Assembly (NCBI GenBank): GCA_000381585.1
Contig: KB906737.1
Coordinates: 310,001 to 374,000 of the forward strand
Source: Acidobacteriaceae bacterium KBS 83
GTDB taxonomy: Bacteria; Acidobacteriota; Terriglobia; Terriglobales; Acidobacteriaceae
Length of the DNA stretch: 64,000 bases
Reading direction: 5' to 3'
Below, piece after piece: positions 15,607-58,266 of the stretch. Each line of letters starts with the position of its first letter. The first letter of the stretch is position 1. The translations under genes were made by a program, and so were the position numbers. The notes beneath the pieces were generated by a model. The model was not told the DNA's origin. It saw only the letters and a list, made by a program, of their open reading frames with translations, and made no database searches.

Positions 15607-17541
15607 ATGTGCATCGCCCGTAACGTTGCCATCTTCATCTGCGTCAGCGGACTTGCCTCTTTGCCCGCCGCCGCTTCCAACCTTGTTACAGGCAACGGCT
15701 TTGGCTTTGCAGTGGTGTCACCCAGCACATCCAAGGTGACTTGCTTCTATGCGCATCCGTACAGCTTTACCCAACCCGACCCCAAAGATCCTCTCAGCGA
15801 AGGTATCCCGACCGCCAACTTCATCAAGAGTGTTAGCTGGAACGATGGAGGCGCTGAGGGCGCGTCGGCGGAATACGAAGAGGACTCAAACGTCATCCAC
15901 GCGCGCAATCGTGCCGGAGAGGGTCTCTTCTTCATGCCCTTCGGTCTTGCGCGCACTGCCTTCATCCTGAGTTGGGAGCCCGCTGAAGCGAAGACGTCTC
16001 GTGGAGCTTTGTCTGTGGAGTGGAACTGGCCGGTCACCTCTCAAAAAGTCGTCAGCATGCTCGGCACCGAAGTACGGATATTGAAATTCGACGGTATCCA
16101 GGAATCTCTATTACTCATTCCGCTGGACCGGCAGCAGGCGGAACCAGTAACAAAGCAGCAGTCTCTAAGCGGCGCCCGTGCATGGGCGCTGCTCTCTCTG
16201 GAAAACGACGGAGAACTCGAATCCGCGCTCCGAGACTTTATCCATTGGCGCGCCGGACTCACACCGCGGGCTCTGGCCAAGCGCGAAATTACAGAAATGG
16301 AGCACTGGCGCGTCAAACCTGCTGTCCATTTCACCGGAGAAAAAGAACGGCACCTGTGGCGTCAAAGCGAAGTCATGCTTCGCATGGCGCAAAGCCGTGA
16401 GCCCAACCGTCCCGGGCGGTACAACAACGGCTTCATAGTTGCCGCCCTGCCGAATGCTGCGTGGTTCATGACATGGGTGCGAGACATGGCATACGCAGCG
16501 ATTGCCCTCGCTCGCATGGGGCATCAGCAGGAGGCCCGCGCCGCGTTGCTGGCGTACTTCAATGCCCGGCCCACCGGAAAGATGCGCATTCAGACAAATG
16601 GTGTCGACTACCAGATTTCGGTGGTGCGCTATTTCGGTGACGGCTCGGAAGAGCCCTTCTTTACCAACGAGGGCGCTATCAATATCGAGTTTGACGATTG
16701 GGGACTCGCGCTCTGGGTGCTGGGTGAGTACATGCGGCAATACGACGATCCCACCCTGCTTGCAACTCCGTCGTACCGCGGCGCGGTCTACAAGAGCGCC
16801 AGGGATTATGTGGTCAAGCCGCTGCTGGCAAACATGGAAAAGCATGACCACGGCCTGATCGTCGCTACCGATACTTCGATATGGGAAGAACATCAGAAAG
16901 ATAAAAAACACTTCGCCTTCTCTACCGCTGCCGCGATCATGGGCCTGCGGGATTTCGCGGAAGTGGCGCGCCGCGAGGGCGACGAAGCGACGCGGACGGA
17001 TCTACTGCAGAAAGTCTCGCTGCTCGAGCGCGGCTTCGATGCCGCCTTCATCAGGGACGGAAAGCTGCGCGGGACCCTCGAGGAAGGCGTGAAGAACGAT
17101 ATCGATGGCGCGTTGCTGGCGATTATCAATTTCGGACTCGTAACCGATCCTGCAGTTGTGCACGATACCGTCCAAAGGATGGATCTTCTGAAGGTATCTT
17201 CCGGCGGCTATCGCCGTGTGCGCAGCACGTACACAGATCCCGCCATCTATGAGTACTGGTACGAACGGCAGGAATTTGTGTTCGTCGACTTCAGCCTCGC
17301 GGAGGTCTACCGGCGCATGGGGAGGAACGACGAGGCCGCCGCCATCCTCAAGCGCATCGTCGACAAATCGGCGGCCGACCACAACATCGTCCCCGAAATG
17401 TATGTTGCGCTGCCCTGCAAGTTGTTTCCCGGCAACCTGGGCGACCCTACCGGAGCGATTCCGATGGTCGGATACGGCGCCGGGGCCTACATCCTGGATC
17501 TTTTGCAACGCGCAACGTGGAGCGACGGGCACCGATCCTGA
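15607..17541 (+). CDS. exported GH15-like (alpha/alpha)6 glycosidase
   Basis: A protein of about 644 residues with a signal peptide (NVAIFICVSGLASLPAAAS) when started at ATG 15607; the frame is open to 15547 but the extra 20 residues would bury the signal. After an N-terminal beta-rich domain comes an (alpha/alpha)6 barrel with GH15 features: FMTWVRDMAYAAIALARMG, a NEGAINIEFDDWGL segment, and SIWEEHQKDKKHFAFSTA, where Glu427 corresponds to the GH15 general acid. Expected activity is removal of glucose from alpha-glucans or trehalose-like substrates, with substrate unproven. It is monocistronic. Confidence 0.8.
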   Translation: MCIARNVAIFICVSGLASLPAAASNLVTGNGFGFAVVSPSTSKVTCFYAHPYSFTQPDPKDPLSEGIPTANFIKSVSWNDGGAEGASAEYEEDSNVIHARNRAGEGLFFMPFGLARTAFILSWEPAEAKTSRGALSVEWNWPVTSQKVVSMLGTEVRILKFDGIQESLLLIPLDRQQAEPVTKQQSLSGARAWALLSLENDGELESALRDFIHWRAGLTPRALAKREITEMEHWRVKPAVHFTGEKERHLWRQSEVMLRMAQSREPNRPGRYNNGFIVAALPNAAWFMTWVRDMAYAAIALARMGHQQEARAALLAYFNARPTGKMRIQTNGVDYQISVVRYFGDGSEEPFFTNEGAINIEFDDWGLALWVLGEYMRQYDDPTLLATPSYRGAVYKSARDYVVKPLLANMEKHDHGLIVATDTSIWEEHQKDKKHFAFSTAAAIMGLRDFAEVARREGDEATRTDLLQKVSLLERGFDAAFIRDGKLRGTLEEGVKNDIDGALLAIINFGLVTDPAVVHDTVQRMDLLKVSSGGYRRVRSTYTDPAIYEYWYERQEFVFVDFSLAEVYRRMGRNDEAAAILKRIVDKSAADHNIVPEMYVALPCKLFPGNLGDPTGAIPMVGYGAGAYILDLLQRATWSDGHRS

Positions 17542-41986: not shown

Positions 41987-42274
41987 AACTCAGTAGGATC
42001 AAAAGGTGCACGTGCACGGCACATTTTGGTATTGATGCGTGCGGCCATCATGGGACGCATGGCTGGAGGGGTTCGAATTACCTCCAGTTTGCCGACCATC
42101 CTTCCGCCATGAGTCCGGTTTCTTCGCGCACGCAGCTGAGTATTTGTGACTTTTCCCTGTCACTAGTCCCAGTTGTGCAGCTCCCATTCATCCACATAAC
42201 GTGCCCCCAGCGAATGAAGATCCAGCAAGTCACGCGGCCCATGGTGGTCAATTGCTCCGGCGATGGAGAAAAGA

Positions 42275-44692
42275 ATGCAAGCAAAAGACTCGTTCAAGGC
42301 AGGCGTGCTAGTTGCAACGTTGACTCTGCTACCTCTATTGTTGCCTGCGCAGCAGATCGATCGGACCCTGCTACCGGTTCCCGAACCTCAACCGCCCACG
42401 ATCACCGAACTGGATGCACGGAACGCCAAGGCGCCGCCGCGTTTTGAAGTGAAGGCTCCCCAGGGATCGCCGAACGTAGTTATTGTTTTGCTGGACGACA
42501 TTGGTTTTGGACAATCCAGCGCTTTTGGCGGACCGGCCAGGATGCCGACGCTCGACAAACTGGCTGCCGAGGGCCTGCGCTACAACGGCTTTCATACCAC
42601 GGCACTCTGTTCGCCGACGCGTATGGCGCTGCTCACGGGGCGTAACCATCACGTCACGAATACGGGAGCCATTATGGAGCTGGCGACCGCATTTCCCGGC
42701 AACACTGGCATTCGTCCGCAGAGCGTCGCACCGTTAGCTGAGATCTTGCGTCTGAACGGATACAGCACCGCCGCCTTCGGCAAGTACCACGAGACCCCGG
42801 CCTGGGAAGTCTCGGTTTCCGGACCTTATGACCGTTGGCCGACGCATTCAGGGTTCGACAAGTTTTACGGTTTCATCGGGGGTGAGACCAATCAATGGGC
42901 GCCTGCCATTTTTGATGGAACGGTCCGAGTGGAGCACCCACCTGACCCCGATTATCACTTCACGGTGGACATGACAAACCAGGCCGTGGCTTGGGTGCAG
43001 GCACAGCATTCGCTGACGCCGGACAAGCCCTTCTTTGTTTACTTCGCCACGGGTGCGCTGCACGCTCCGCATCATGTACCCCAGCCGTACATTGACCGCT
43101 ATAAAGGGGAGTTCGATGAGGGATGGGACGCATTGAATGAGAAGACATTTGCACGTCAGAAACAAATGGGGATTGTCCCTCAGAATGCGGAGCTGACTAA
43201 GCGACCCAAGGAGATTCCATCGTGGGATTCACAGACTCCAGAGCAGAAGAAGCTCGAGGCCCGGCAGATGGAGACTTTTGCCGGATTTGCGGAGCAAACC
43301 GATGAGCAGGTGGGACGACTGGTGGATGCACTGCAAGAGATGGGCGTAATGGACAACACCTTGTTCATTTACATCGTCGGGGATAACGGAGCCAGTGCAG
43401 AAGGCGGACCGCTAGGCGCTTACAACGAGATGATGGCGCTCAACGGAATCGTCAGCGACGCCAAGATCAACATGCCTCATATGGACGCCTGGGGCGATCC
43501 CAGCACTTTCCCCCATTACGCCATCGGGTGGGCATGGGCAGGGGACACTCCTTTCCAATGGACCAAGCAGATCGCGTCACACTACGGCGGAACGACGAAT
43601 GGGCTGGTGATCCATTGGCCGGTGCGCATCAAGGCCAAGGGCGAGGTTCGTTCCCAGTTCACTTACGTTACTGATATTGCGCCGACGGTGACGGAAGCGG
43701 CGGACTTGCCGTTTCCCAAGAGCGTGAACGGGGCGGTGCAGCGGCCGTTCGATGGAACTTCGATGATCTACAGCTTCGACAACGCCAACGCGAAGGAGAC
43801 GCATACGACACAGTATTTCGAGATGTTCGGAAATAGGGGCATCTACCATGACGGCTGGGTGGCCGCCGCGCGCCACTCCATTCCGTGGCTGATGGTGCCC
43901 ACTCCACCGCTTTCGCAGGACGTCTGGGAGTTGTATCACGTTGCCGACGACTTCAGCGAAGCCAGGGACCTTGCCGCCCAGGACCCAGCAAAGCTGAAAG
44001 AAATGCAGGCGCTGTTTACGACGGAGGCAGTGAAGAACCACGTGTTGCCCATCGACGACCGGCGATCCGAACGTTTTGACGCCTCGATCGCCGGAAGGCC
44101 CGACTTGATGGCCGGCCGCACTACTCTGACGGTTTATCCAGGCATGATCGGGATGACGGAGAACGCCTTCATCAACATCAAGAACCGTTGCTACACCATC
44201 ACGGCGTCGGTGGAATTAGCGGACGGCAACACCAATGGGGTGATCATTGCACAGGCGGGCAGATTCGGCGGCTGGACCCTCTATATGAAGGAAGGCAAGA
44301 TCCATCACGAGTACAACTTCTTCGGGGTGGAAAGCACCAATATCGGCGGGCCGGCCCCACTCACAGCGGGCAAACATGAGATCAAGTATGAGTTCACCCC
44401 CGATGCTCCCAAACCAGGCGCTGGAGGCAGGTCCATCCTCTACGTTGACGGCAAACAAGTGGCGGAAGGACATGTACCGAAGACTCAGCCGTTTGCCTTT
44501 TCTGCCGACGAGGGCACGGATGTGGGTATGGACGGTGAAACCGCAGTATCGAACGACTACAAGCAGGGAGACAACAAGTTCAGCGGCAAGATCCTGAAGG
44601 TAAAGATCGACACGAAGCCGCCAAACCTTAGTGCGGCTGATAAAAAAGCTGTGGAAGATGCGGACGAAGAGGCAGCAGCGATCGAGGACTGA
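42275..44692 (+). CDS. exported arylsulfatase
   Basis: An 805-residue exported sulfatase. I prefer the ATG at 42275 because GGAGAA lies just before it; an in-frame ATG at 42263 would add four residues. The sulfatase signature CSPTRMALLTGRNHH has the cysteine (Cys112 from this start) converted to formylglycine by an FGE-type enzyme, and IVLLDDIGFGQSS holds metal ligands. After the catalytic part (about 1-540) there is a C-terminal domain (TLYMKEGKIHHEYNFFGVES) typical of large arylsulfatases. It would remove sulfate from aryl or carbohydrate substrates; no anaerobic maturase is adjacent. Confidence 0.92.
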   Translation: MQAKDSFKAGVLVATLTLLPLLLPAQQIDRTLLPVPEPQPPTITELDARNAKAPPRFEVKAPQGSPNVVIVLLDDIGFGQSSAFGGPARMPTLDKLAAEGLRYNGFHTTALCSPTRMALLTGRNHHVTNTGAIMELATAFPGNTGIRPQSVAPLAEILRLNGYSTAAFGKYHETPAWEVSVSGPYDRWPTHSGFDKFYGFIGGETNQWAPAIFDGTVRVEHPPDPDYHFTVDMTNQAVAWVQAQHSLTPDKPFFVYFATGALHAPHHVPQPYIDRYKGEFDEGWDALNEKTFARQKQMGIVPQNAELTKRPKEIPSWDSQTPEQKKLEARQMETFAGFAEQTDEQVGRLVDALQEMGVMDNTLFIYIVGDNGASAEGGPLGAYNEMMALNGIVSDAKINMPHMDAWGDPSTFPHYAIGWAWAGDTPFQWTKQIASHYGGTTNGLVIHWPVRIKAKGEVRSQFTYVTDIAPTVTEAADLPFPKSVNGAVQRPFDGTSMIYSFDNANAKETHTTQYFEMFGNRGIYHDGWVAAARHSIPWLMVPTPPLSQDVWELYHVADDFSEARDLAAQDPAKLKEMQALFTTEAVKNHVLPIDDRRSERFDASIAGRPDLMAGRTTLTVYPGMIGMTENAFINIKNRCYTITASVELADGNTNGVIIAQAGRFGGWTLYMKEGKIHHEYNFFGVESTNIGGPAPLTAGKHEIKYEFTPDAPKPGAGGRSILYVDGKQVAEGHVPKTQPFAFSADEGTDVGMDGETAVSNDYKQGDNKFSGKILKVKIDTKPPNLSAADKKAVEDADEEAAAIED

Positions 44693-45869: not shown

Positions 45870-48008
45870 ATGAACCAGCACCGCTCTCTTGTAGCCGGGC
45901 TGCTCGCCGCCCTCGTCTTCGCCCCGCTTCTCTGCGCTCCGCTTCTCTGCGCCCAGGACTTCAAGAAGCAGGTCATCTACCAGATCGTCACCGACCGCTT
46001 CTTCGACGGCGACACCACCAACGACAATCCGTCGGAAAGCCCCGGCCTCTACGACTCCACCAGGACCAACTGGTTCGCCTACTGGGGCGGGGACCTCGCC
46101 GGCATCCAGCAGAAGATGGCCTACATCCAGGGGCTGGGTGCCACCGCCATCTGGATCTCGCCCACCGTCAACAACGAAAACTCCAGCATGAATACCTCCA
46201 GCGTCTCCGCCCCCTATCACGGCTACGACGCGCGCGACTTCATGCAAGTCGAAGAACACTTCGGCGACAACGCGAATGATTGGACAGCCTTCAACAACCT
46301 CATCTCCGCCGCGCACGCGAACAACATCAAGGTCATCCTCGACTGGGCTAATAACCACTCGAACTACAACGCCGCAGGCGAAAAGGGCGCCCTGTATAAC
46401 AACGGCACCTTGATGGCCTCCGCCGGCAACGATCCCACCGGCATCTTCCACCACAACCCCGACATCGCCGACTACAACGACCGCTACCAACTCCAGTACT
46501 ACACCCTCAGCGGTCTCACCGACCTCAACCAGGAGAACTCCACCGTCGACAGCTACCTCAAGTCAGCCGCCGAGCTCTTCCAGTCCCATGGCGTCGACGC
46601 ATTCCGCCTCGACGCCCTCAAGCACGCCACTTGGGGGTGGGAGTACTCCTTCGCAAACGCGATCTACAACAACAAACCAACTTTTCTCTTCGGTGAGTGG
46701 ATCGACAGCACCAGCGACGCGCTCTACCACGACGCCTACAAGTTCGCGAACCGGAGCGGCATCAGCGAGCTCGACTTCGGCGTCAATGGCGCCATGCGCG
46801 ACGTCTTCGGAAGCAACCACAACTTCTCCGAGCTCGACGGCGTCATCGCTACTGAGAACTCGAACTTCACTTCGCCGAACGACCTCGTCACCTTCTTCGA
46901 CAGCCACGACGAATCGCGCCTGCTGACCATGAACAACAACCGGAACCGGCTGCAGGAGGCGATGGCTTTTCTCATCACCTGCCGCGGCATCCCCGTCATC
47001 CTGTACGGCGACGAGCAGTACTTGCATAACGACACAAACAACGGCAATGATCCATACAATCGGGTCGCCATGACGCCGACCTCGTTCAACACGACCAGCA
47101 CTGCCTACAAGCTCATCGGCAAACTCGCCGGACTTCGCAAGGCGAACGACGCACTTGGGTACGGCACCTGGCGTCAGCGCTGGATCAACAACGACGTCTA
47201 CATCTACGAACGCCAGTTCTTCAACGACGTCGTGCTCGTCGCCATCAACAAGAACGACAGCACGGCGCAAAACATCTCCCGCCTCTTCACCTCCCTGCCC
47301 GCAGGCACCTATGCGGACTATTTAGGAGGCCTTCAGAGCGGAGTGCCGCTCACCGTCACCAGCGGCAGCGGCGACAATAATCCCGCGAACAGCGTCTCTC
47401 TGCCAGCGCACTCCGTCAGCGTCTGGCAGGTGAGCAGCGCTGCGACGGCGCCAGAGGTCGGCAGCATCGGACCCACGGTCGGCCAGCCCGGCATGCAAGT
47501 CACAATCGCCGGCGACGGCTTCGGCAGCGCACGTGGCAGCGTGAAGGTGAACGGCACAACAGCCACAATCACCTCTTGGTCAAACATATCTGTTTCCTTC
47601 ACAGTGCCCAATATCGCCAGCGGCAACTACACCGTGCAACTGGCCAACAGCCAGGGCGCGCTTGCGAACTCCATCCAGTTCAGTGTGCTCACTGCGAGGC
47701 TCATCCCCGTGACCTTCACCGTGAACAACGCAACGCCTACCGGTCCCGGCGATTACATCTTCCTCACCGGCAATACGGTAGAGCTCGGCAATTGGGGAAC
47801 AACATTCGACACCGCCGTCGGTCCAATGCTCGATCCTAACTATCCCAACTGGTTCCTGAACGTCTCCGTTCCTGCGGGCCAGAGCATCCAGTTCAAGTTC
47901 ATAAAGATCGCTGCAAGTGGCACCATCACCTGGGAGAACGGCGCCAATCACTCCTACACTGTGCCCACCAGCGGCACGGGATCAGTCAACGTCACCTGGC
48001 AGAATTGA
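45870..48008 (+). CDS. exported GH13 alpha-amylase / CGTase-like with IPT/TIG and CBM20
   Basis: A 712-residue exported enzyme acting on starch-like alpha-glucans. The signal peptide includes a repeated APLLC unit. The GH13 barrel has nucleophile Asp248 (GVDAFRLDALKH), acid/base Glu276 (FLFGEW) and Asp347 (FFDSHDES). Order of domains: A/B barrel (about 25-470), C domain (to ~525), an IPT/TIG domain (IGPTVGQPGMQVTIAGDGFG, about 530-610) and a CBM20 starch-binding domain (PVTFTVNNATPTGPGDYIFL onward). This A-B-C-D-E layout is that of cyclodextrin glucanotransferases and maltogenic amylases. It is convergent with the GH144-like gene. Confidence 0.92.
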   Translation: MNQHRSLVAGLLAALVFAPLLCAPLLCAQDFKKQVIYQIVTDRFFDGDTTNDNPSESPGLYDSTRTNWFAYWGGDLAGIQQKMAYIQGLGATAIWISPTVNNENSSMNTSSVSAPYHGYDARDFMQVEEHFGDNANDWTAFNNLISAAHANNIKVILDWANNHSNYNAAGEKGALYNNGTLMASAGNDPTGIFHHNPDIADYNDRYQLQYYTLSGLTDLNQENSTVDSYLKSAAELFQSHGVDAFRLDALKHATWGWEYSFANAIYNNKPTFLFGEWIDSTSDALYHDAYKFANRSGISELDFGVNGAMRDVFGSNHNFSELDGVIATENSNFTSPNDLVTFFDSHDESRLLTMNNNRNRLQEAMAFLITCRGIPVILYGDEQYLHNDTNNGNDPYNRVAMTPTSFNTTSTAYKLIGKLAGLRKANDALGYGTWRQRWINNDVYIYERQFFNDVVLVAINKNDSTAQNISRLFTSLPAGTYADYLGGLQSGVPLTVTSGSGDNNPANSVSLPAHSVSVWQVSSAATAPEVGSIGPTVGQPGMQVTIAGDGFGSARGSVKVNGTTATITSWSNISVSFTVPNIASGNYTVQLANSQGALANSIQFSVLTARLIPVTFTVNNATPTGPGDYIFLTGNTVELGNWGTTFDTAVGPMLDPNYPNWFLNVSVPAGQSIQFKFIKIAASGTITWENGANHSYTVPTSGTGSVNVTWQN

Positions 48009-48021
48009 GGCTCCGGAAGCA

Positions 48022-50271
48022 TCATTCCTTCGGCGGGTCAGGCTGAAATCCGATGCGCTGGAGCGCCTGCTTGATCTCAGGGTTTTTCATGAACGTCTTC
48101 CAGATCAGACCGCTTCGATAGTTCTCGATCATCACTACCATGGGTGCCTGGTTTAGCCCCATATTGATGTTTGCGACCCAGTCCTGCTGTTGGTTAAAGG
48201 CGTCACGAAACCCGAAAGGCCCCCAGAGCTCCGAACCATTGTCGCGATAGAAGTGCTTGAGCGCGTGCATCGATGCCTCCGGTAGATATGGCATCGAGCT
48301 GATCGCGCCCGTGGGCGCGATCGTGCCGTCATCAAGCTCATACTTATTGGCTGGATTCGGCTCGTACGGCACGTAGCCCCCGGGCCCGTCCACCGCCGTG
48401 ATGCCCCAATCATCCGACCCGTACCCGGCGTACCCCGCAGGATTCCGCTCGCAATATTTCAAATTGATCGTCGCCATATTCCGGTTCTGATCGAAGTAAT
48501 TCGTGTACTTGTCGTGCAGGCCACGCGGATCGAATCCCATGAAAGAGTACTGCGTGAAGAACAACGGGCCACCCACGCCTTCTCCCACCTTCAGTTCGAC
48601 ACCCTCCGCCTTGTGCGGTTGCGAGTAGCTGCTGCCGCCCGCCCACCCAGAAGAGTAGAAGCTCGCCGGCACAGCGTGGGTCGGCGAGGCGATCGCATCG
48701 AGGTACGTGATCATCACCTCATTCCACCCGGCCAGCCGGAAGTGGATGAACCACGCGTAATCGGGCGACCAATGCCAGAAGATGGCGTCGTTCTTCGGAT
48801 CGCGCCGGAACCAGCTCCACTCCACACCCTGCCATAGACGCGTGATCCGGTCGCGGAGCTCACGCTCGCTGGTCGTATCGCGGTCGAAGTATTCCCGGGC
48901 AGTCAACAGCCCCTCCATCATGAAGGAGGTCTCCACCAGATCGGCGCCATCGTCATACGCACCAAACAGCGGCAGCGCCTTGCCGGTGCTGCCATCCATG
49001 AAGTGCGCCCACGCCCCATGGAAGCGATCCGCGCGCTCCAGAAAGCGCGCGATCTTCAGCATCCGCTCCGCCCCTTGCTCGCGCGTGATGAAGCCGCGAT
49101 CGACACCGACCACCAGCGCCATCACACCAAAGCCGCTGGCCCCCGTGGCGACAATGCTGTCATTGCCGGGGATATTCTCCCGCGCCATTCCGGACACCTG
49201 GCTCCCGCCCTCCCAGTAGTAGAGGAACGACGCCTGCTGCACCATGGTCAGCAGCTCATCGTCCGTCATCGGATGCGTCGATGCGGAGACCGGCGCCGAC
49301 ATTGGCCCCTGATGAAAGCTGCGATCCACTGCCGCGACTTTGTAAGCCGCATGCTTATCGGTAGCCCCGAGAAAATCCTCCCACCGCCGAATTCCCGGCA
49401 CCTGGATGCCAACCGGTTCGAAAGGACCGCCATCGAGCGAGCGATAGATGAGGTAGTGACGTACTCCCGTGTTCGTTAACGGCTGCCATGCAACCTCAAC
49501 GTGCCGCTCATACCCGGTGGCCGTCACATCCCGCACCGCCGGCAAAACCGTGTGCACCACAAGCTGCCGGCTGTCTTCAATCGAGATGTCATCAATGAGC
49601 AGTGTGTGTGCTGCCCCGTCGGCCTTGTCTTGAGAAAACACGACCGCGATGATCTTCTGCGGATCGAGCACATGGACCGTAGAAGAATGGAAGGCCCGGA
49701 TCGGAATGGCGATTCGGGTCCATCTACCAGGACGGAGACCTGAGAAGTAAGGTGCCAGTTCCAGCGGCTTGGTAAAGTTGTGATCCTCGTCGTTGAGCGT
49801 CAGGTTCGGTGCAAGATCGACCCCGTAGCTAGAGGTTCGTCCTGCATCGCGCAATACAACTCTGGGCAGATTCTGCTCGGACAACGGCTCTGATTCGTAG
49901 CACCAGAATGTCAGCGTATCGCCGGTGAAGTGGAGAAGACGGTTGCGCCACTCGTTGACGCGAATATGCGCCTGCCACCCTCCGCCATCGTTCGAAACCC
50001 AATGCAGCCGCAGCGCATTCGGCGGGGTGTGGAAGTGCTCCCCATCCACGGGAAGACGGCCCGCAATGGTTTCCACCGTGCTAGGGCCCTGTACATCCGC
50101 CTGAGCGTAGAAGTAGCGATCTGGTGTAAGGCTGTTGTCAAATAGAACGCGGTCGTAATATGACGATTGCGCACGCGCCCTCGGCAATCCCGCTATCGCA
50201 GCGGCTACACACATAAGAGCAACCACCGGATTGCATAGCCCAAGCTCCATCTGGCGAGAACAAATCTTCAC
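48022..50271 (-). CDS. exported GH144-like / glucoamylase-family (COG5368) enzyme
   Basis: A protein of about 749 residues with a signal peptide (VVALMCVAAAIAGLPRARA). Residues ~30-240 form a beta-sandwich of the kind that binds carbohydrate, followed by an Ig/FN3-like segment. The C-terminal (alpha/alpha)6 barrel (about 345-745: ASFLYYWEGGSQVSGMAREN, ATGASGFGVMALVVGVDRGF, FFTQYSFMGFDPRG) belongs to the PF10091/COG5368 'glucoamylase' group, which in CAZy is GH144, characterised as endo-beta-1,2-glucanase. The GTG at 50271 overlaps the upstream GH13 gene stop as GTGA; ATG 50250 is an alternative. Exact substrate is inferred only. Confidence 0.83.
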   Translation of the reverse strand: MKICSRQMELGLCNPVVALMCVAAAIAGLPRARAQSSYYDRVLFDNSLTPDRYFYAQADVQGPSTVETIAGRLPVDGEHFHTPPNALRLHWVSNDGGGWQAHIRVNEWRNRLLHFTGDTLTFWCYESEPLSEQNLPRVVLRDAGRTSSYGVDLAPNLTLNDEDHNFTKPLELAPYFSGLRPGRWTRIAIPIRAFHSSTVHVLDPQKIIAVVFSQDKADGAAHTLLIDDISIEDSRQLVVHTVLPAVRDVTATGYERHVEVAWQPLTNTGVRHYLIYRSLDGGPFEPVGIQVPGIRRWEDFLGATDKHAAYKVAAVDRSFHQGPMSAPVSASTHPMTDDELLTMVQQASFLYYWEGGSQVSGMARENIPGNDSIVATGASGFGVMALVVGVDRGFITREQGAERMLKIARFLERADRFHGAWAHFMDGSTGKALPLFGAYDDGADLVETSFMMEGLLTAREYFDRDTTSERELRDRITRLWQGVEWSWFRRDPKNDAIFWHWSPDYAWFIHFRLAGWNEVMITYLDAIASPTHAVPASFYSSGWAGGSSYSQPHKAEGVELKVGEGVGGPLFFTQYSFMGFDPRGLHDKYTNYFDQNRNMATINLKYCERNPAGYAGYGSDDWGITAVDGPGGYVPYEPNPANKYELDDGTIAPTGAISSMPYLPEASMHALKHFYRDNGSELWGPFGFRDAFNQQQDWVANINMGLNQAPMVVMIENYRSGLIWKTFMKNPEIKQALQRIGFQPDPPKE

Positions 50272-53200
50272 GATTTGGGCTTACTCGGAGTCGATTTTTT
50301 CGTGCTCTTCTTTGCCTTCGAATTGGAGCCTTTCTCAGACGAAGGGTCAGCGCCGGCTCCATCCTGCGGACTGCTCAACTTTGCCTTCTCCTTCACCTGG
50401 CTCGAAATCTTGGTTGCTCCGGCCTTCGAAGTCGTTCGCACCCGTGCCGAAGGCGAACTAGACGCATTCGCAGTGTCAACCTTTTCGGCCACTCGGCCGG
50501 ATCGCGCTTGTGCATCCAGCATGAAATCCAGGCGGTATCCAGCCTCCTTCGCCGCCCGGGAGGCAAGGTGAACTGCAGCAGCAGTCTCCCGCGCCGCCAC
50601 GCGTTGTTCTGGTGGCGTCGCTGCAGCCAGGGCCGGTACCTGGATCCACCACAACAGCTCTTCGTGGCTCTCCTCGTTGAAGTAGCGCACTCCATCTGAC
50701 TCATGCGTCCCCGTGAGCCACTGCACATCGCCGTCCTGCCATTCCTTTCGCGATAACTCGAGCGAGAGTGGGCTTGCACGGTGCAGCAGAAATCTCACGC
50801 GCGCTGCTCCACGCCAGCCATCTTCTCCGCTCATCCCCAACCCGTGGAAGGTATGCGCCAGAGCATGCCGCAGCCGCAGCCGATCGAACACCGATACTCC
50901 ATCGAGTGGCAACCCGCGCAGCAATGACCATGCCAGCACCGGCGCCCACACCGCTGCGCCGCTGGTGCCAGGCGAATCGCTCGGCAGCACCTTGCGAGCA
51001 GTCTCCGGCCAGCGCTGCGGGAAGAGTACCTCAATGCGAGGCAAAGCCAGCGTCGAAACCAGCAGCGCGCTCTGATGTGGTTCCACGCCGACCGGTGTCG
51101 TCTCATATTCGACTTGGAGTTGCCTTGCGATTCTGTGGAAGCGGTTCCCGCGTTCGATAAAGGGAGCGACCGCTTCCAGTATCCGCTGTTCGCGCTGGCG
51201 CACAGCAAGCGCGCCGGTTGCCTCCATCTCTGCTGCATCGATAATTTTCGCAAGCACACCGGAATCGAGCGCGGCGCGTAGTGCCTCGTGCAACGGTTCC
51301 AATCGCAGTTGCTCGAGCGCCTCATCCAGATTGGGCACGCCCGTGCCATGCAGCGAGTCGTGCAGGCGGTCCCATGGACATTCGCGGCTCGCACGCAACT
51401 CCCGCCAATCGAGGAACACGTGATAGTTGTAAGCTTGAAGATGGAAGGAGAACCCGCGCTGGTGCATATCGGACGCTCGTCGCAAGTATTCGAGTCCGTT
51501 GCTGACATCACGAAACGCGAGGATCACATCATGATCTGTCGGGAGATGTAGTCCGTCCTGCAGCGTTCGCTGGCGCAATCCTCCATTCGTTTTATCGATG
51601 AAACCCGTCGAGTGGTGAATCGTCCCGCGGGTCTCGCCATAGCGATTGTGATAGAGCACCAGGGCCCGCTGTCCGCCGCGCGCGTTGGAGTAGGCGTAGA
51701 CGTTTTCGTCCACGGTTCCGTCTTCTTTCCAGAAGTCGTAAAGCAGGAAATTCTCGCTCTCCGCAAAAAGCCAGCGGCTATGCAGCAGCGGGGCAATCTC
51801 GCGATTGTGACGATCCACCAGCCATTGATCCGGCGTCTCGTCATAGCGTGGCCGCTGGTATTCCATTCCATATTTTTCCGTGAATCCCTCGACCTGGCCG
51901 TGACCAAACATGGGCAACCCCGGCAGCGTTGCCATCAATGTGGCAATACCAAAGCACTTGTCACCGGTGCCGAACTGATCGATGGTCGTGCGCTCATCCG
52001 GATTGCTCATGAAGTTGACATAACGCTTCATGATGCCTGGATCGAATTCCATGGTTTGCTTCAAGAGCCCGCGATAATGCTGATTGTCCTCGTCGCGTAG
52101 CAGATTCATGAACGCGCTGTTATAGACGCGATGCATACCGAGGGTGCGAACAAAATATCCCTCCATCATCCAGAACGCCTCGGCCAGTAGCAGCGTGCCA
52201 GGCACCTCCGCCGCCACGCGGTCCACGACCTCCCGCCAGAACTCCACTGGGATGCACGCGTCGAACGCGGAGGTCGGCATGCTATACTCGGCGCGCGAAG
52301 GAATCGCCCCGCCTGCTCCGGGTGCCGGATACCAGAGCCGCTGGATGTGCCGTTTCGCCAGCGTCATCGCAGCATCGAAGCGGATGATCGGAAAGAGTCG
52401 CGCCACATGCAGAATGGTCTGGATTACCTGCTCACGTACGGCGGGATTCAGATAGTCAAGTTGCGCCGTGTCGTTCCACGGAAAACTGGTGCCATCATTG
52501 CCGTGATAGACGTAGCGTGTGTCCCCGGTCCACTTATCGAGGCGCCGGAAGACTACTGCTGCGTCAGACTGCTCGTAGTAATGGTCTTCAATCTTGATCT
52601 CAACGCGCCCATCGCTCGACAGATCGGGTCCGTTGAAACTGTACGCCGGATAGGGCGAGTCGTAGCGCGAGAGGAACCACTCCGGGTGCTCGATCACCCA
52701 TGGGGAATCGATGCCCATGTGATTAGGCACCATGTCGCTGGCAAGCCGAATTCCGAATCTCCTGGCCTGGTCTCGCAAGCGAATGTACGCATCATAACCG
52801 CCAAGATCATCCGCAATTCTGTAGTCGTAAAGAGAATAGGCTGACGCAACAGCATCCTCCTTGCCGCACAGATGTTTGATCGTGCGCGAGGCTCGGCTCC
52901 GCTCCCACAGTCCAATGAGCCACAGCGAGTTCATGCCGCGAGCGGCCAACGTCGCGAGTTCTTCGTCCGGTATCTGGTCGAGTCGTGTGATTGATTTCCC
53001 ATGCCGCTTGCTGAGTTGCGCCAGCCACACATATGTGCTTTTCGCGATCAGAACCGTGCTCGGCATCCAGTCCTGGTCAGGACTGAATCGCTCATACTCG
53101 TGTTGCAACACGGCGAAATCTGGCAGATCGACGCGTCCACCAAAATCGCCCGCATGTCCTTGCCTTCCCCGGCGCCGCCGCTCGGCCATCTCATCGGAAG

Positions 53201-53981
53201 GATGAAAGCGCATCCAAATCGCGACGTCTTCTTCCTGCAATACATCTATTGCAAGAACCAGACGGCGCAACGCTGCGTCGCCTAGAATGCGACTCCACTT
53301 GTCGCGAATAAAAGCGAGCTGCCCGCTTAAAGAATCTGGCGAAGCAAGCGCTGGCGCACGCAGCACGTCGATCAGGTTCGCTCCCTCGTCACCAATGGGT
53401 GGTTTCGTCGCGAAGAACTCACGCAGTCCACCGGTCACCTTCGGATAGGGCGTCTGCTTCGTCAGCGACGTGGCATCGAAGAGCTCAATGAACTTGTGAA
53501 AGCCTGGATTTGCGTTCGCCAGCCACAACATCATCAGTTCTTCAAACGCTGCTTCACGATGCGATATACCGTCCGTCGAACCGCTCAGCCATTCTTCTGC
53601 TGTCTCTTCGCCTCGGTAAATCGTCGACCCGGGAAACTCCTGTACAAAGCGCAGCAGCAGCTCATTCAGGCGCTCAGCTCCGAGCCGCGACGAAAACCAC
53701 TGCAACGCGTCAGCGATCGCCTGTGGCGCCACTACTTTGCGGTAATGATAGACGAGTAGATGACTTGCCTCATCAATCAGTCCCATCGCGAAGAGCGCTC
53801 CGGGGTGAATGGTCCGCTGAGGATCTTCATCGGTGCCCCGCACCCGATTCATGCTGTGTGCCAGCTCACGGCTGGCCTTCACGTCAGCAAAGATCACGTT
53901 TCCGGAGAAGGAGAACAACGCCTGCTCTGCGTGATATCGGTGACGTGCAGCGCGCGAAATGTGAAATTCCATCAAAGGCAT
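50268..53981 (-). CDS. very large GH13-type alpha-glucanase-like protein
   Basis: A 1237-residue protein without an obvious signal peptide, so probably cytoplasmic. Residues ~1-330 are not recognisable. The central GH13 barrel has Asp536 (IIRFDAAMTLAKRH), Glu601 (TLLLAEAFWMMEG) and Asp662 (SNPDERT) in the positions of the catalytic triad; third motif is NPD instead of the common HD. SDMVPNHMGI is conserved region I. After ~residue 850 lies a long unassigned helical part, then a Lys/Ser/Thr-rich tail (SKAKKSTKKSTPSKPKS). This is far longer than standard amylases. It overlaps the GH144-like gene, suggesting they work together. Confidence 0.82.
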   Translation of the reverse strand: MPLMEFHISRAARHRYHAEQALFSFSGNVIFADVKASRELAHSMNRVRGTDEDPQRTIHPGALFAMGLIDEASHLLVYHYRKVVAPQAIADALQWFSSRLGAERLNELLLRFVQEFPGSTIYRGEETAEEWLSGSTDGISHREAAFEELMMLWLANANPGFHKFIELFDATSLTKQTPYPKVTGGLREFFATKPPIGDEGANLIDVLRAPALASPDSLSGQLAFIRDKWSRILGDAALRRLVLAIDVLQEEDVAIWMRFHPSDEMAERRRRGRQGHAGDFGGRVDLPDFAVLQHEYERFSPDQDWMPSTVLIAKSTYVWLAQLSKRHGKSITRLDQIPDEELATLAARGMNSLWLIGLWERSRASRTIKHLCGKEDAVASAYSLYDYRIADDLGGYDAYIRLRDQARRFGIRLASDMVPNHMGIDSPWVIEHPEWFLSRYDSPYPAYSFNGPDLSSDGRVEIKIEDHYYEQSDAAVVFRRLDKWTGDTRYVYHGNDGTSFPWNDTAQLDYLNPAVREQVIQTILHVARLFPIIRFDAAMTLAKRHIQRLWYPAPGAGGAIPSRAEYSMPTSAFDACIPVEFWREVVDRVAAEVPGTLLLAEAFWMMEGYFVRTLGMHRVYNSAFMNLLRDEDNQHYRGLLKQTMEFDPGIMKRYVNFMSNPDERTTIDQFGTGDKCFGIATLMATLPGLPMFGHGQVEGFTEKYGMEYQRPRYDETPDQWLVDRHNREIAPLLHSRWLFAESENFLLYDFWKEDGTVDENVYAYSNARGGQRALVLYHNRYGETRGTIHHSTGFIDKTNGGLRQRTLQDGLHLPTDHDVILAFRDVSNGLEYLRRASDMHQRGFSFHLQAYNYHVFLDWRELRASRECPWDRLHDSLHGTGVPNLDEALEQLRLEPLHEALRAALDSGVLAKIIDAAEMEATGALAVRQREQRILEAVAPFIERGNRFHRIARQLQVEYETTPVGVEPHQSALLVSTLALPRIEVLFPQRWPETARKVLPSDSPGTSGAAVWAPVLAWSLLRGLPLDGVSVFDRLRLRHALAHTFHGLGMSGEDGWRGAARVRFLLHRASPLSLELSRKEWQDGDVQWLTGTHESDGVRYFNEESHEELLWWIQVPALAAATPPEQRVAARETAAAVHLASRAAKEAGYRLDFMLDAQARSGRVAEKVDTANASSSPSARVRTTSKAGATKISSQVKEKAKLSSPQDGAGADPSSEKGSNSKAKKSTKKSTPSKPKS

Positions 53982-54204: not shown

Positions 54205-56760
54205 CTACGCGCTCACGTCAAGGTCCACACGTTCACCATGCGCAAACAGGGAAGCAGGCAGCAGAATAGCTGCACCCTCCACCGTGCCCACCGATGCGGT
54301 CCGGAGGTTCCCACCGCCCGGCGGATGTATGTGGACCCGAACCTCTCCACTGAACCCGGCAACGGCCTCGACCACCACATGCCACCTTTCGTCGGCGGTT
54401 GCCTCAGTCGTCCATGCAATGCGTCCAAAGCGCGTCGGACATTTGCGCACCGCGATCCGTTCTCCTTTGTGGAACCAGTGCTTGGGTGCCGCCTTTTGCA
54501 GGTGGCAGATATCCCGATCGTTCTCTTCGTAGCACAGCATCCAGCGCAGCCCCATGGCGGGCTGCAGTGCGCTGTTGATCACCGCAGACCATCCCCACGG
54601 CGCTCCATCGCCCGGATAACCACCTGGAATGTAAGCGTCCTCCGGCGAGTAGCGGTTGCCAGAGTCCGCGGCATAACACACCAGCGCGTAGAGGGTCAGC
54701 AGAAATGGGCGGTAGTCCTCCTGCCGGATCTTCACCGCAAGCGAGCCATGCTCCATGAAGTTTGAGTTGCGTGGCACATGTTCATTCGTGCTCAGTCCGC
54801 AGATTTGTTCGCCGGCCAGCTCGCGATGCTTCAGGTGACCCAAGTCCAGCGCCGGCACTCCCCAGTCGGCGAGAAACCAGTCCATCATGAAACGGTGGTT
54901 CTCGTAGTTGGACAGTTCCGTCGGCTTGCGCAGAATGTCATTCGGCTCGAAGGGTGTGATTCCAGCCGTGCGCATCTCCGGGGTCGAGGCGGCAATCGTG
55001 GCCTCGATCGAAGCCTGAATGTTCTGCCTCATCTCCTCCGCAACCGACCCATAGCGTTCCCCCAGCGCAGTCATTCCGCGGTCGTTCTCAGATGCGCCGA
55101 TCGAGCGCAGCGCCTTCGCATACTCCGTGATTCCACGCCACGCACACGCCGCGTTCTGATAGTAGTACGGATGCGAACCGGGATAGTCGTTCGTCGGATC
55201 GCCCAAGTCCGCCTCCGGAGAGCCCCAGATCAATCCATAACGACGATCGCTCTTCGCAAACTGCTGCTTGCCATATTCGTAACGCGCAAGCACGTACCCC
55301 AGCATGCGTTCGAGCACCGGCTGCTGCCTCTTCAGGCTGCTCGTGTCCCGCGTATACCAGTAATCGCGTGACGCATTCATCAGAAACATGCCTACATTCA
55401 GCGGCGCCTCCACCTGGTCTTGTGTGTTGTATAGAAAATTGCCGTCAGGAAGCACATAGTGCTCCAGATAGTGGTGTATGTAAGGGCGGCTGGCCTCGGT
55501 GAGCCCCCACAACTGCTGTCCCCAGATGAACTCATAATGTGCGACCGGGAACAGCGCATGGCTGCGCTCGGGAATTTTCGTATAGCTCCCCTCCCCTATC
55601 TGGTATGTCGGATCGAGCCCTCGATAGCTGCAGCGGCACAAGGTAATGCCAGCCCGCGCGGCATCCAGAATCCACGGATCCGGGGTCTCCACTGGCATCG
55701 CGTCTTCGTAAAAACTGTGCCAACGGTTCCAGATGCCCGCCAACGCGCTGAAGAAAGCTCCCGGCGATGTATTCCAGAAGTGTTCGGCATAGGTTCGCCC
55801 ATCGGGCGCATGCACGAGCATGGCATCCCGTCGCTCATAGTGCGCCACGTCTTCGGCCGGAATCATCATGCGCATGCGTGCTATCGGCTGCGCCTCAACC
55901 CCCGGGGGCAGCAGCATCATGAGTTCATATCCGCATCCGTATTGCACATTCCATACCGCAGTGTCTGCCACCGGAAGATATCCGCCAAGCAGCGTGCGCT
56001 TGCTGAAGCCATGTTGATAGGCATAGCGCTCCGGAGCGGCGAAGGGAAAATATCGGGACGGGTCGAAGAGCCGTCCCTCGAGATCCGGAGCCCACTCCGC
56101 CTGTGGATTCTTCTTCGGCTGACGGCTCGTGCCGTCCGCCTCCAGATAGATCGACCCCAACGGGCCCGCTTCCTCGTTTGCCACCAGCGACCAGCCAATG
56201 TACTCAGCCCCAAGTGCCGCGACGTTCTCGTAGCAAGGGTCCTCAATAGATTTCAGAATGTATTCGCCTGTTACATCCGGACCGGGAGGTAGCTGCAGCG
56301 GACGCTCGAGCTTGACTCCGTGGGGTGTATCGGTCGGCCGGGGTCGCACCTTGCTCAGATCTCCCACCTGCTTGGAAATCAGCGCGATCGTACCGCCGCG
56401 CTCCGTCACATAGGCAATGGCTCCCCGGTGCGTCGCATGCTTTTCGAATACAGCGGTCATCACTCCGTTAATCTCCACCGTAGTCAACAGCACCCAACCC
56501 GCGATGCTCTGACCGTGCACAAGCTTAATCTCGACGCTCGCATGACTCGCGGTGGCTCCAGTCCCATCGATCGCCTTCACCTTCGGTGGCTCGGCCAGCG
56601 CCTCCCGCTCTCCCGGTAGGAAGGTGCTGTATTCGTTCACGATCCGGCCCGGCCAGTAATTGCCGGTAGGGCGTGGCGCTGCGAATATATCCTCAGCCGG
56701 CCCGAAGGTGCTTGCTGCTCCTGCGGCTGATAACAGCTTTAGAAAATCTCGACGATCCAA
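54205..56760 (-). CDS. Tat-exported protein with six-hairpin-glycosidase-like fold, unknown family
   Basis: About 851 residues. I prefer the TTG at 56760, preceded by GGAGAA nine bases before; it gives a twin-arginine signal (DRRDFLKLLSAAGAASTFG). TTG starts at 56775 and 56790 are alternatives. After an N-terminal beta-rich part (about 60-360), the region ~390-750 has an (alpha/alpha)-barrel look (YIHHYLEHYVLPDGNFLYNT, LERMLGYVLARYEYGKQQF, HPYYYQNAACAWRGITEYA) as in six-hairpin glycosidases, then a small beta C-terminal domain. I do not recognise the family. The Tat route suggests it folds before export or carries a cofactor. Confidence 0.72.
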   Translation of the reverse strand: MDRRDFLKLLSAAGAASTFGPAEDIFAAPRPTGNYWPGRIVNEYSTFLPGEREALAEPPKVKAIDGTGATASHASVEIKLVHGQSIAGWVLLTTVEINGVMTAVFEKHATHRGAIAYVTERGGTIALISKQVGDLSKVRPRPTDTPHGVKLERPLQLPPGPDVTGEYILKSIEDPCYENVAALGAEYIGWSLVANEEAGPLGSIYLEADGTSRQPKKNPQAEWAPDLEGRLFDPSRYFPFAAPERYAYQHGFSKRTLLGGYLPVADTAVWNVQYGCGYELMMLLPPGVEAQPIARMRMMIPAEDVAHYERRDAMLVHAPDGRTYAEHFWNTSPGAFFSALAGIWNRWHSFYEDAMPVETPDPWILDAARAGITLCRCSYRGLDPTYQIGEGSYTKIPERSHALFPVAHYEFIWGQQLWGLTEASRPYIHHYLEHYVLPDGNFLYNTQDQVEAPLNVGMFLMNASRDYWYTRDTSSLKRQQPVLERMLGYVLARYEYGKQQFAKSDRRYGLIWGSPEADLGDPTNDYPGSHPYYYQNAACAWRGITEYAKALRSIGASENDRGMTALGERYGSVAEEMRQNIQASIEATIAASTPEMRTAGITPFEPNDILRKPTELSNYENHRFMMDWFLADWGVPALDLGHLKHRELAGEQICGLSTNEHVPRNSNFMEHGSLAVKIRQEDYRPFLLTLYALVCYAADSGNRYSPEDAYIPGGYPGDGAPWGWSAVINSALQPAMGLRWMLCYEENDRDICHLQKAAPKHWFHKGERIAVRKCPTRFGRIAWTTEATADERWHVVVEAVAGFSGEVRVHIHPPGGGNLRTASVGTVEGAAILLPASLFAHGERVDLDVSA

Positions 56761-56877
56761 ATCGCATTTCTCCAATGTGCGCCGCGGCAACTAACCGCTC
56801 GAACACCCCTGAAATACAAACCGTCCCAGCCTATCGCAGCTTTGGGTAAGCCAACCTTCGTCAGCGCATTGACGCGC

Positions 56878-58266
56878 TCAATTCTTTGCCGGGCTGGCCC
56901 GATATAAGGCGCAGGCATGGGGTACCAGGCGCACGGTGACGCCATGCGCAGCGTGTCTCTCACTGTGCTCCCAAAGATCCCGTAAAACGTATCTACCGGC
57001 CGGCCACCCGAGTCGCGCCCAGGTGTAATTCAACTCTTGCACCTGATTCGAGGTATTGAAGATCGCCACGTATCTGCTTTCCCCCTTCTCGGCTTTCGCT
57101 GTCCATACGCTGGCTGCCGGCGACTGGAACATAGCGCGCCCACCAGTCGAGTGCTGGTCCACCGCCAGGACTTCGTCATTGGTCAACAGTGCCGTTGTTC
57201 CTGGGTCATTGTGCGGCAGATCGCCCCCCATCATCAGGGGTGAGCGAAAGATGGACCACAGCGTCATCATCGTGCGCTGTTCCGCAAGCGAGAGCCGTGT
57301 CTGGCGCGCCTTGCCCCAGCCCGGTGACGGCCCCAGGTAGCCCAGAGGAAGCATGTCCGCATCCGGCCAATGGCCGGGCTCGGTGAGCGGCGCCCACTCT
57401 GCTGCGCGAGAAAACTGATCGCCGAGTCCCTGCGGATACTCCACTTCGCTGTGCCACTCGTCCCAGATGTCATCCGAGATCCGCCACATCTGCGCGTACT
57501 TCCTCATCTCATCGAGTTTGTCGACCGGGGCGGCTCCCGGAGACAGGCTCAACAGGATCGGACGGCTCGTTTTGCGCAACGCCTCGCTTAACATGCGGAT
57601 CTCCGTGCTTTTGTAGGGACGCGACGCAATACAGTCCACCTTGATCAGATCCACCCCCCAGGCGGCATACAGCCTGGCAATCGAGTCGTAGTACGCCTGA
57701 CCCGCGGCAGTGTCTTTCAAATCGAAATTATCGTGGTTCCAATGACACGTACCCGAAGTGTTCGCGGCATCCGTGGCGTGAAAGCGTGACCCCGCGATCG
57801 GTAAGTTCCTCGCCACCGCCTCGCGAGGGATTCCCTGAAGTATGTGGATGCCAAACTTGAGGCCCCTTGCATGCACATATGCGGCAAGCGGCGCGAAACC
57901 ATCGCCGTTCGCCGCGGACAGAAACCGATTGGGCGCAGGAACGTAGCGGCCGTGAAGATCGAGCGCATAGCGGAAGTTCGTCGCATTGCCCTCTGCAATC
58001 GGGTTGGCGACAAACCACTCCATATCCACGACAATGTATTTCCAGCCATGCCGCTTCAGATGGACAGCCATCCAGTCTGCGTTCGCCTTTACCTGCGCCT
58101 CCCCAACGGTCGTCCCGTAAGAATCCCAACTGTTCCATCCCATGGGGGGCGTTTGCGCTGGCGTTGCGGATATGCCATGATGCGCCGGCTGCCCATGCAG
58201 CCCGAGTATGCATAAGCAGACAACAAGCGCGCCCATCCATCCGACCTGGCGATACGTTATTCCCAT
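56878..58266 (-). CDS. exported GH27 alpha-galactosidase
   Basis: A 462-residue secreted glycosidase. Signal peptide (GALVVCLCILGLHG), then TPPMGWNSWDSYGTTVGEAQ, the classical GH27 start. The nucleophile is Asp211 in DLIKVDCI, and the acid/base is in RISDDIWDEW (Asp265 or Asp266). GHWPDADMLPLG and FRSPLMMGGDLP match the family. GH27 enzymes remove alpha-galactose (or alpha-N-acetylgalactosamine) from oligosaccharides or glycans. It is divergent from the LacI regulator. Confidence 0.93.
   Translation of the reverse strand: MGITYRQVGWMGALVVCLCILGLHGQPAHHGISATPAQTPPMGWNSWDSYGTTVGEAQVKANADWMAVHLKRHGWKYIVVDMEWFVANPIAEGNATNFRYALDLHGRYVPAPNRFLSAANGDGFAPLAAYVHARGLKFGIHILQGIPREAVARNLPIAGSRFHATDAANTSGTCHWNHDNFDLKDTAAGQAYYDSIARLYAAWGVDLIKVDCIASRPYKSTEIRMLSEALRKTSRPILLSLSPGAAPVDKLDEMRKYAQMWRISDDIWDEWHSEVEYPQGLGDQFSRAAEWAPLTEPGHWPDADMLPLGYLGPSPGWGKARQTRLSLAEQRTMMTLWSIFRSPLMMGGDLPHNDPGTTALLTNDEVLAVDQHSTGGRAMFQSPAASVWTAKAEKGESRYVAIFNTSNQVQELNYTWARLGWPAGRYVLRDLWEHSERHAAHGVTVRLVPHACALYRASPAKN

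Follow-up and report, generated by a model that had tools for sequence, protein, structure and literature searches.

Positions 54,205-56,760 of the window (the whole 64,000-nucleotide stretch of DNA analyzed here) encode on the minus strand a protein that is probably (about 0.7) an exported six-hairpin glycoside hydrolase built on an (alpha/alpha)6 barrel. Its predicted activity would be inverting, its location is probably periplasmic, and its family has no name in the libraries searched; it is set outside the named glycoside hydrolase (GH) families because of the Pfam models tested. The mode of action would resemble that of the inverting (alpha/alpha)6 hydrolases, which would make the protein an addition to a well-known enzyme class.

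The Gene and its Start Codon

The minus strand of 54,205-56,760 is open to its stop codon, and a gene on the plus strand was rejected, as several stops interrupt that frame. The preliminary description, which left the strand unstated, had counted 850 residues in an open reading frame at these positions; the frame is confirmed, on the minus strand, and comprises 851 residues from a TTG at 56,760. A longer call for the same gene (54,205-56,790, minus strand) begins at an upstream TTG ten codons earlier and yields 861 residues. Residue numbers below follow the 861-residue frame, and subtracting 10 converts them to the 851-residue protein. GGAG, read from the sequence as the likely ribosome-binding site (56,770-56,773, minus strand), precedes the TTG at 56,760-56,758, nine bases ahead, and a TTG codon right before the conserved x-R-R is also found in L021, L022, L023, L024 and L067. 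Because of this GGAG and the retention of TTG at that codon in the five relatives, the start already chosen in the preliminary description, at 56,760, is probably the true one. The gene is more than a chance open reading frame, since in other genomes 56 of the 57 stretches that match it contain no stop (best-segment identity 51-82%).

The Export Signal

The N-terminus carries a twin-arginine signal (56,677-56,760, minus strand) that consists of DRRDFLKLL, a hydrophobic stretch and an end estimated to lie near IFAAP. The NCBIfam model TAT_signal_seq scores 21.9 bits on the protein, above its cut-off of 16.7, and the Pfam model TAT_signal reaches 21.5 bits, slightly below its cut-off of 22.7. 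The motif RRxF[L/I] is in frame in all 50 sequences counted (the window and 49 of the 57 loci), the count being made without eight loci, seven of which begin inside the gene and one of which (L071) has a frameshift. The Tat signal recognized at first reading is thus present, and the protein is probably Tat-exported, which would place it in the periplasm.

Distribution and Paralogues

The protein is matched in 18 of 61 genomes, including the window's own, and three of these 18 hold distant paralogues only. A wider profile, run on a phylum-wide sample of 395 genomes, finds matches in 23; six of the 23 (again including the window's own) contain a full-length close member, and the others contain paralogues or partial matches. 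The scan of GTDB species genomes used two patterns, and since both are conserved peptides of the close family, distant members lie outside it. It returned 91 pattern matches, which gave 60 confirmed stretches and 57 loci. Most of these loci are labeled Acidobacteriota (53 of 57), two carry the label "bacterium" and two come from Gemmatimonadota bins, both of which contain just the last third of the gene, at a contig end. Members are present in the named isolates Acidipila rosea DSM 103428 and Edaphobacter lichenicola X5P2, and the window's genome has a single copy.

A paralogue from Granulicella tundricola (WP_232298890.1) shares 24.5% identity with the protein over 41% of the query. It represents a separate subfamily, 22% identical along its length in alignment A1 (the family plus three paralogues), and is annotated merely as "Tat pathway signal protein," without a functional name. 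The comparable paralogues L016, L017 and L020 retain E526, D528 and E717 in A1. The 57-row alignment of the close family (A3) excludes the frameshifted L071, and a further alignment, A6, excludes L071, L075, L076 and L077.

Searches Against Named Families

Pfam and NCBIfam return the Tat signal alone, besides a weak match to DUF3782 (E 0.21). Searches with the protein give no match in PHROGs and no credible match among PDB sequences. In Pfam, the models PF17389 (GH78), PF00723 (GH15) and PF22124 (GH95), those for GH63, and PF22422 (MGH1-like) do not match the protein at E-values up to 1, nor do the polysaccharide lyase models match it. No description of the protein family was found in the literature searches. 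The family therefore still goes unrecognized, as originally suggested, in Pfam, NCBIfam, PHROGs and the PDB sequence set, to which the term "unnamed" is relative, CAZy/dbCAN lying outside the comparison.

Predicted Fold

The AlphaFold2 model built from the 57-row alignment (pLDDT 87.3, pTM 0.91) is arranged into an N-terminal beta domain (residues 55-339; 55,774-56,628, minus strand), a linker helix, a barrel of twelve helices and a C-terminal beta sandwich (residues 755-861; 54,208-54,528, minus strand). The (alpha/alpha)6 barrel, delimited from the model and from structure comparison, spans residues 372-752 (54,535-55,677, minus strand).

In Foldseek, the whole model is placed closest to GH78 rhamnosidases (8iwd, E 2.3e-9), followed at lower ranks by the arabinanase ExoMA2 and by GH94-type phosphorylases, GH95, GH116 and GH15 structures. 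Comparison of the whole model with VIA yields a Z-score of 20.3 to MmpH (322 residues, 3.4 A) and of about 19 to GH78 structures (465-470 residues, 5.6-6.1 A), the latter over the barrel and C-terminal domain; GH95 structures are also among the whole-model fold matches. The barrel alone scores highest with dextran dextrinase (Z 24.5; 346 residues, 3.4 A), followed by MmpH (24.1), bacterial glucoamylase (24.0) and glucodextranase (23.0). The bacterial glucoamylase 1lf6, the glucodextranase 1ug9 and the dextran dextrinase 9ju0 are GH15 members, and MmpH (7qsj) and YgjK are GH63-type hydrolases. A model of the barrel by itself is weaker (pLDDT 79.3, pocket loops partly below 50) and has no Foldseek match under 1e-3.

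Glycoside hydrolases and phosphorylases make up the majority of the fold matches listed. A few are of other kinds, namely epimerases, an aldolase-like enzyme (AprG) and terpene synthases, and no lyase is among those listed. From these comparisons, the six-hairpin assignment of the preliminary description, which spoke of barrel-like helices, is borne out, in view of the twelve modeled barrel helices and of the Z-scores of 20.3 and 24.5 to solved members. The closest enzymes are those of GH15, GH63 and GH78, none of which stands out from the others. The proposal of a new glycoside hydrolase or polysaccharide lyase family survives in its first half, which the fold and the profile links described below support; the lyase half gains no support from fold matches that are mostly glycoside hydrolases and phosphorylases.

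Sequence Links Through a Bridging Group

The family profile A1 detects a bridging group (A4) of 17 distant homologues in the phylum with a probability of 99.7% (E 3.9e-27), and the bridging group in turn reaches GH15 (98.3%, 1.8e-14) and GH78 (97.6%, 4.7e-12); these hhalign E-values are pairwise and not database-scale. On its own, A1 reaches GH15 at 13% and GH78 at 38%, and the close family (A3) at 0.2 and 2.2%, respectively. The sequence link of the family to GH15 and GH78 thus hangs on the bridging group, because the close family alone reaches them weakly. A combined profile, in which the close family was thinned to roughly every fourth member, gives 97.7% for both GH15 and GH78 and 96.5% for GH95. 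The comparison sets were hand-picked from retrieved loci (GH15, 21 sequences; GH78, 12; GH95, 7; MGH1, 24 in three sets).

When the PDB is searched with A4, YgjK (6e-6), MmpH (5.8e-5) and dextran dextrinase are found. The same search with A1 or A3 gives nothing usable, and neither does A5, a profile that includes bridging members (best 0.048). Single bridging proteins match TIGR01577 ("oligosac_amyl") below threshold, the best at 2.5e-12 with 46.2 bits, where the cut-off is 820.7. As judged from sequence, the protein is homologous to member families of the six-hairpin superfamily, and this homology runs through the bridging group only.

The sequences L089-L107 are six-hairpin proteins of 600-1,150 residues that bridge GH15, GH63 and GH78 in profile comparisons; the seven that were scanned have no Pfam match over the cut-off.

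The Candidate Active Site

With helices taken from the model, the loops on one side of the barrel add up to 148 residues vs. 18 on the other. The idea that the pocket-side loops are also more conserved was rejected: the two faces do not differ in loop conservation (0.83 vs. 0.79, p = 0.47), and length alone sets them apart. Few stretches of the protein are as conserved as the loops of helices 1-2 and 3-4 (0.95 and 0.93, mean 0.72).

The helix 11-12 loop, DSGNRYSPEDAYIPGGYP (54,613-54,666, minus strand), contains the proposed general base, E717 (54,640-54,642). This residue is invariant in 56 of 56 family members and in all nine rows of A5, among them the bridging members. Aligned with GH78, it falls exactly on the E of GATTWWE, the position of the GH78 base; alignment with GH15 leaves the base register offset by four residues. 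The published GH78 general-base motif is GATTLWERW (PMC12838782).

The favored general acid lies in the helix 5-6 loop, GLIWGSPEADLGDPTND (55,186-55,236, minus strand), which includes E526 (55,213-55,215) and D528 (55,207-55,209). Both are present in 54 of 54 family members and, as described above, in three paralogues. The general acid is unsure, since some A5 rows depart from E at position 526 (Y in L086, for example). GH15-type enzymes place the acid on the helix 5-6 loop and the base on the helix 11-12 loop. The other candidate is E400 in the helix 1-2 loop, CSYRGLDPTYQIGEGSYTKIPERSHALFP (55,546-55,632, minus strand; model and alignments), which is E in 54 of 55 members and Q in one, and stands one residue away from the GH78 acid in the GH78 alignment. 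E526 or D528 is tentatively favored over E400. The same loop holds E408, which was dropped as a GH78-like acid because it is V in four and Q in one of 55 members. The paired acidic residues proposed as a check at first reading are plausible, the invariant E717 and its possible partners E526/D528 or E400 being carried by different loops; in the wider comparison with bridging relatives, E717 alone is invariant. Neither the GH78 acid motif DCPxRDERxGWxGD nor the base motif GxTTxWExW occurs in any of the 57 rows of A3, although the control is weak, as the two patterns are found in three and four of 12 PF17389-type proteins.

Taken together in a proposed mechanism, the Tat system would deliver the protein, probably to the periplasm, where the sugar end of the substrate would enter a pocket formed by six long loops on one barrel face, with a presumed exo action. 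E717 would act as general base on a water molecule, and protonation of the leaving group would fall to another acid, with E526 or D528 the likeliest and E400 a less likely choice. The bond would then be cut by a single displacement with inversion.

Gene Neighborhood

The preliminary description had also noted adjacent glycosidase genes, and Pfam agrees. Upstream lies a Melibiase_2 (GH27-type) gene (56,878-58,266, minus strand, 462 residues), and downstream follow an alpha-amylase-domain gene (50,268-53,981, minus strand, 1237 residues) and a gene for a "Glycoamylase" PF10091 protein (48,022-50,271, minus strand, 749 residues). The 50,268-53,981 protein matches the alpha-amylase domain at 7.7e-7 and gives weak matches, far below the cut-off, to TreY and other GH13 equivalogs; judging by its sequence, it is possibly an unusual GH13 enzyme. 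Near the locus, the plus strand encodes an 809-residue sulfatase-domain protein (42,263-44,689) and an alpha-amylase with TIG and CBM20 domains (45,870-48,005). Elsewhere in the window, a 670-residue open frame contains a stretch (16,423-17,049, plus strand) that matches GH15 weakly, at 31.9 bits, which exceeds the Pfam cut-off.

Two-locus clusters and matching lengths suggest that L021, a locus from the same genus, also has the pair of GH27-type and amylase-domain genes. Across the other loci gene order is not conserved (57 loci). Besides the window genes, 45 neighboring proteins were scanned with Pfam, and the neighbor positions come from 52 loci, because the gene caller missed the family gene in five of 57 (L044, L058, L064, L075 and L076). 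A GH127-type gene is found in six of 57 loci, where 704 kb of flank would be expected to hold about 0.16, given 35 copies in the ~154 Mb (sum of rounded sizes) of 41 relative genomes, an excess that is inflated by counting related loci as independent. Among these loci, L043 and L077 are near copies, and in L033 and L034 the GH127 copy lies at the far edge of the locus, that of L033 being a fragment. A CarboxypepD_reg/outer-membrane-barrel protein is encoded in 11 of 57 loci, a raw count without density control. The surroundings of five distant paralogues include a GH127 relative in two cases (25 and 34% identity) and a relative of the receptor in one. Other neighbors are a GtaA six-hairpin protein (three loci), GH92 (L031), GH78 (L046) and MFS or sugar transporters (L028, L047 and L048), together with genes unconnected with sugars (TPR proteins, peptidases, a type II secretion protein, a methyltransferase, HSP90 and others). 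The neighbors support a role in glycan use without naming the sugar, and the window itself looks glucan-like.

Some further genes near family members were recorded. Histidine kinases with a 3-keto-disaccharide hydrolase domain (PF06439) are encoded at L026 (4,785-6,968) and L025 (7,042-9,249), and in L025 a periplasmic-binding-protein-type gene stands beside the kinase, possibly a sugar-sensing two-component system. One related clade has several loci in which an MGH1-like glycoside hydrolase match adjoins the family gene (L062, 2,205-4,430; G037:C7:177772-178269; G048:C436:6256-6765; G042:C57:28548-29030).

Alternative Functions

The families nearest in fold provide the main alternatives. It is unlikely that the protein is, sequence apart, an alpha-glucosidase or glucoamylase of the GH15/GH63 type that acts, in the window's locus, on glucans resembling starch or dextran. 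GH15 structures and MmpH do give the highest barrel Z-scores (23.0-24.5 for GH15; MmpH 20.3 with the whole model and 24.1 with the barrel), the bridging group reaches GH15 at 98.3% and finds YgjK and MmpH, its single proteins have sub-threshold TIGR01577 matches, the favored acid and base loops are those used in GH15, and the neighbors in the window include the alpha-amylase with CBM20, the "Glycoamylase" and the alpha-amylase-domain gene. However, the protein itself matches no Pfam model of GH15 or GH63, the family alone reaches GH15 at 13% by profile with the base register four residues off, and its own close profiles find neither YgjK nor MmpH in the PDB. Moreover, of the 57 other loci apparently L021 alone shares the GH27-type and amylase-domain neighbors, and different sugar genes occur at other loci. 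A very divergent GH78-type alpha-L-rhamnosidase, with E717 as base and E400 on the helix 1-2 loop as acid, is rather improbable too. GH78 structures lead the Foldseek matches (Z about 19), E717 coincides with the GH78 base, and the largely conserved E400 is one residue off the acid, but PF17389 has no match, both motif patterns are absent from A3 (with the weak control mentioned), the barrel alone scores equally or higher with GH15 and GH63, and E400 is replaced by Q in one member. GH95 alpha-L-fucosidases resemble the protein in the 96.5% of the combined profile and in their presence among the fold matches, yet this likeness is weaker than that to GH15 and GH78, and the GH95 acid motif is out of line with GSPEAD.

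Functions other than hydrolysis are less probable still. The helical barrel fold also serves polysaccharide lyases, and the fold matches include epimerases and GH94-type phosphorylases, so that a lyase, sugar epimerase or phosphorylase was considered; it is very unlikely given the conserved acid loops, the alignment of E717 with the hydrolytic base of GH78 and the lack of any lyase among the listed fold matches. A phosphorylase fits poorly with the Tat signal, since phosphorylases are normally cytoplasmic. Loss of catalysis, leaving a sugar-binding or sensory protein, would agree with the variation of E400 and E408 in a few members; it is the least probable reading, as E526, D528 and E717 are constant in every member that covers them (54-56 members), and conservation in the loops of helices 1-2 and 3-4 is well above the mean (0.95 and 0.93 vs. 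0.72).

The preferred reading is therefore an exported hydrolase of an unnamed family. A fuller version of it can be put forward tentatively, at well below even odds: a new GH family that, within the collection scanned, is mostly limited to Acidobacteriota and that would stand, along with its paralogues of 22% identity and the bridging group, between GH15, GH63 and GH78. The substrate of its members would be a plant or microbial glycan that is rich in arabinose or branched in some other way; the CarboxypepD_reg/outer-membrane-barrel receptor would take it up, and GH127-type enzymes would share in its trimming.

Significance

Acidic soils harbor abundant Acidobacteriota. Neither this protein nor its paralogue bears a functional name in the libraries or records covered. 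The family is compact, has near-invariant pocket loops and occurs in named isolates, making it a directly expressible target. The bridging relatives, which connect GH15, GH63 and GH78 by sequence, could help to order the superfamily.
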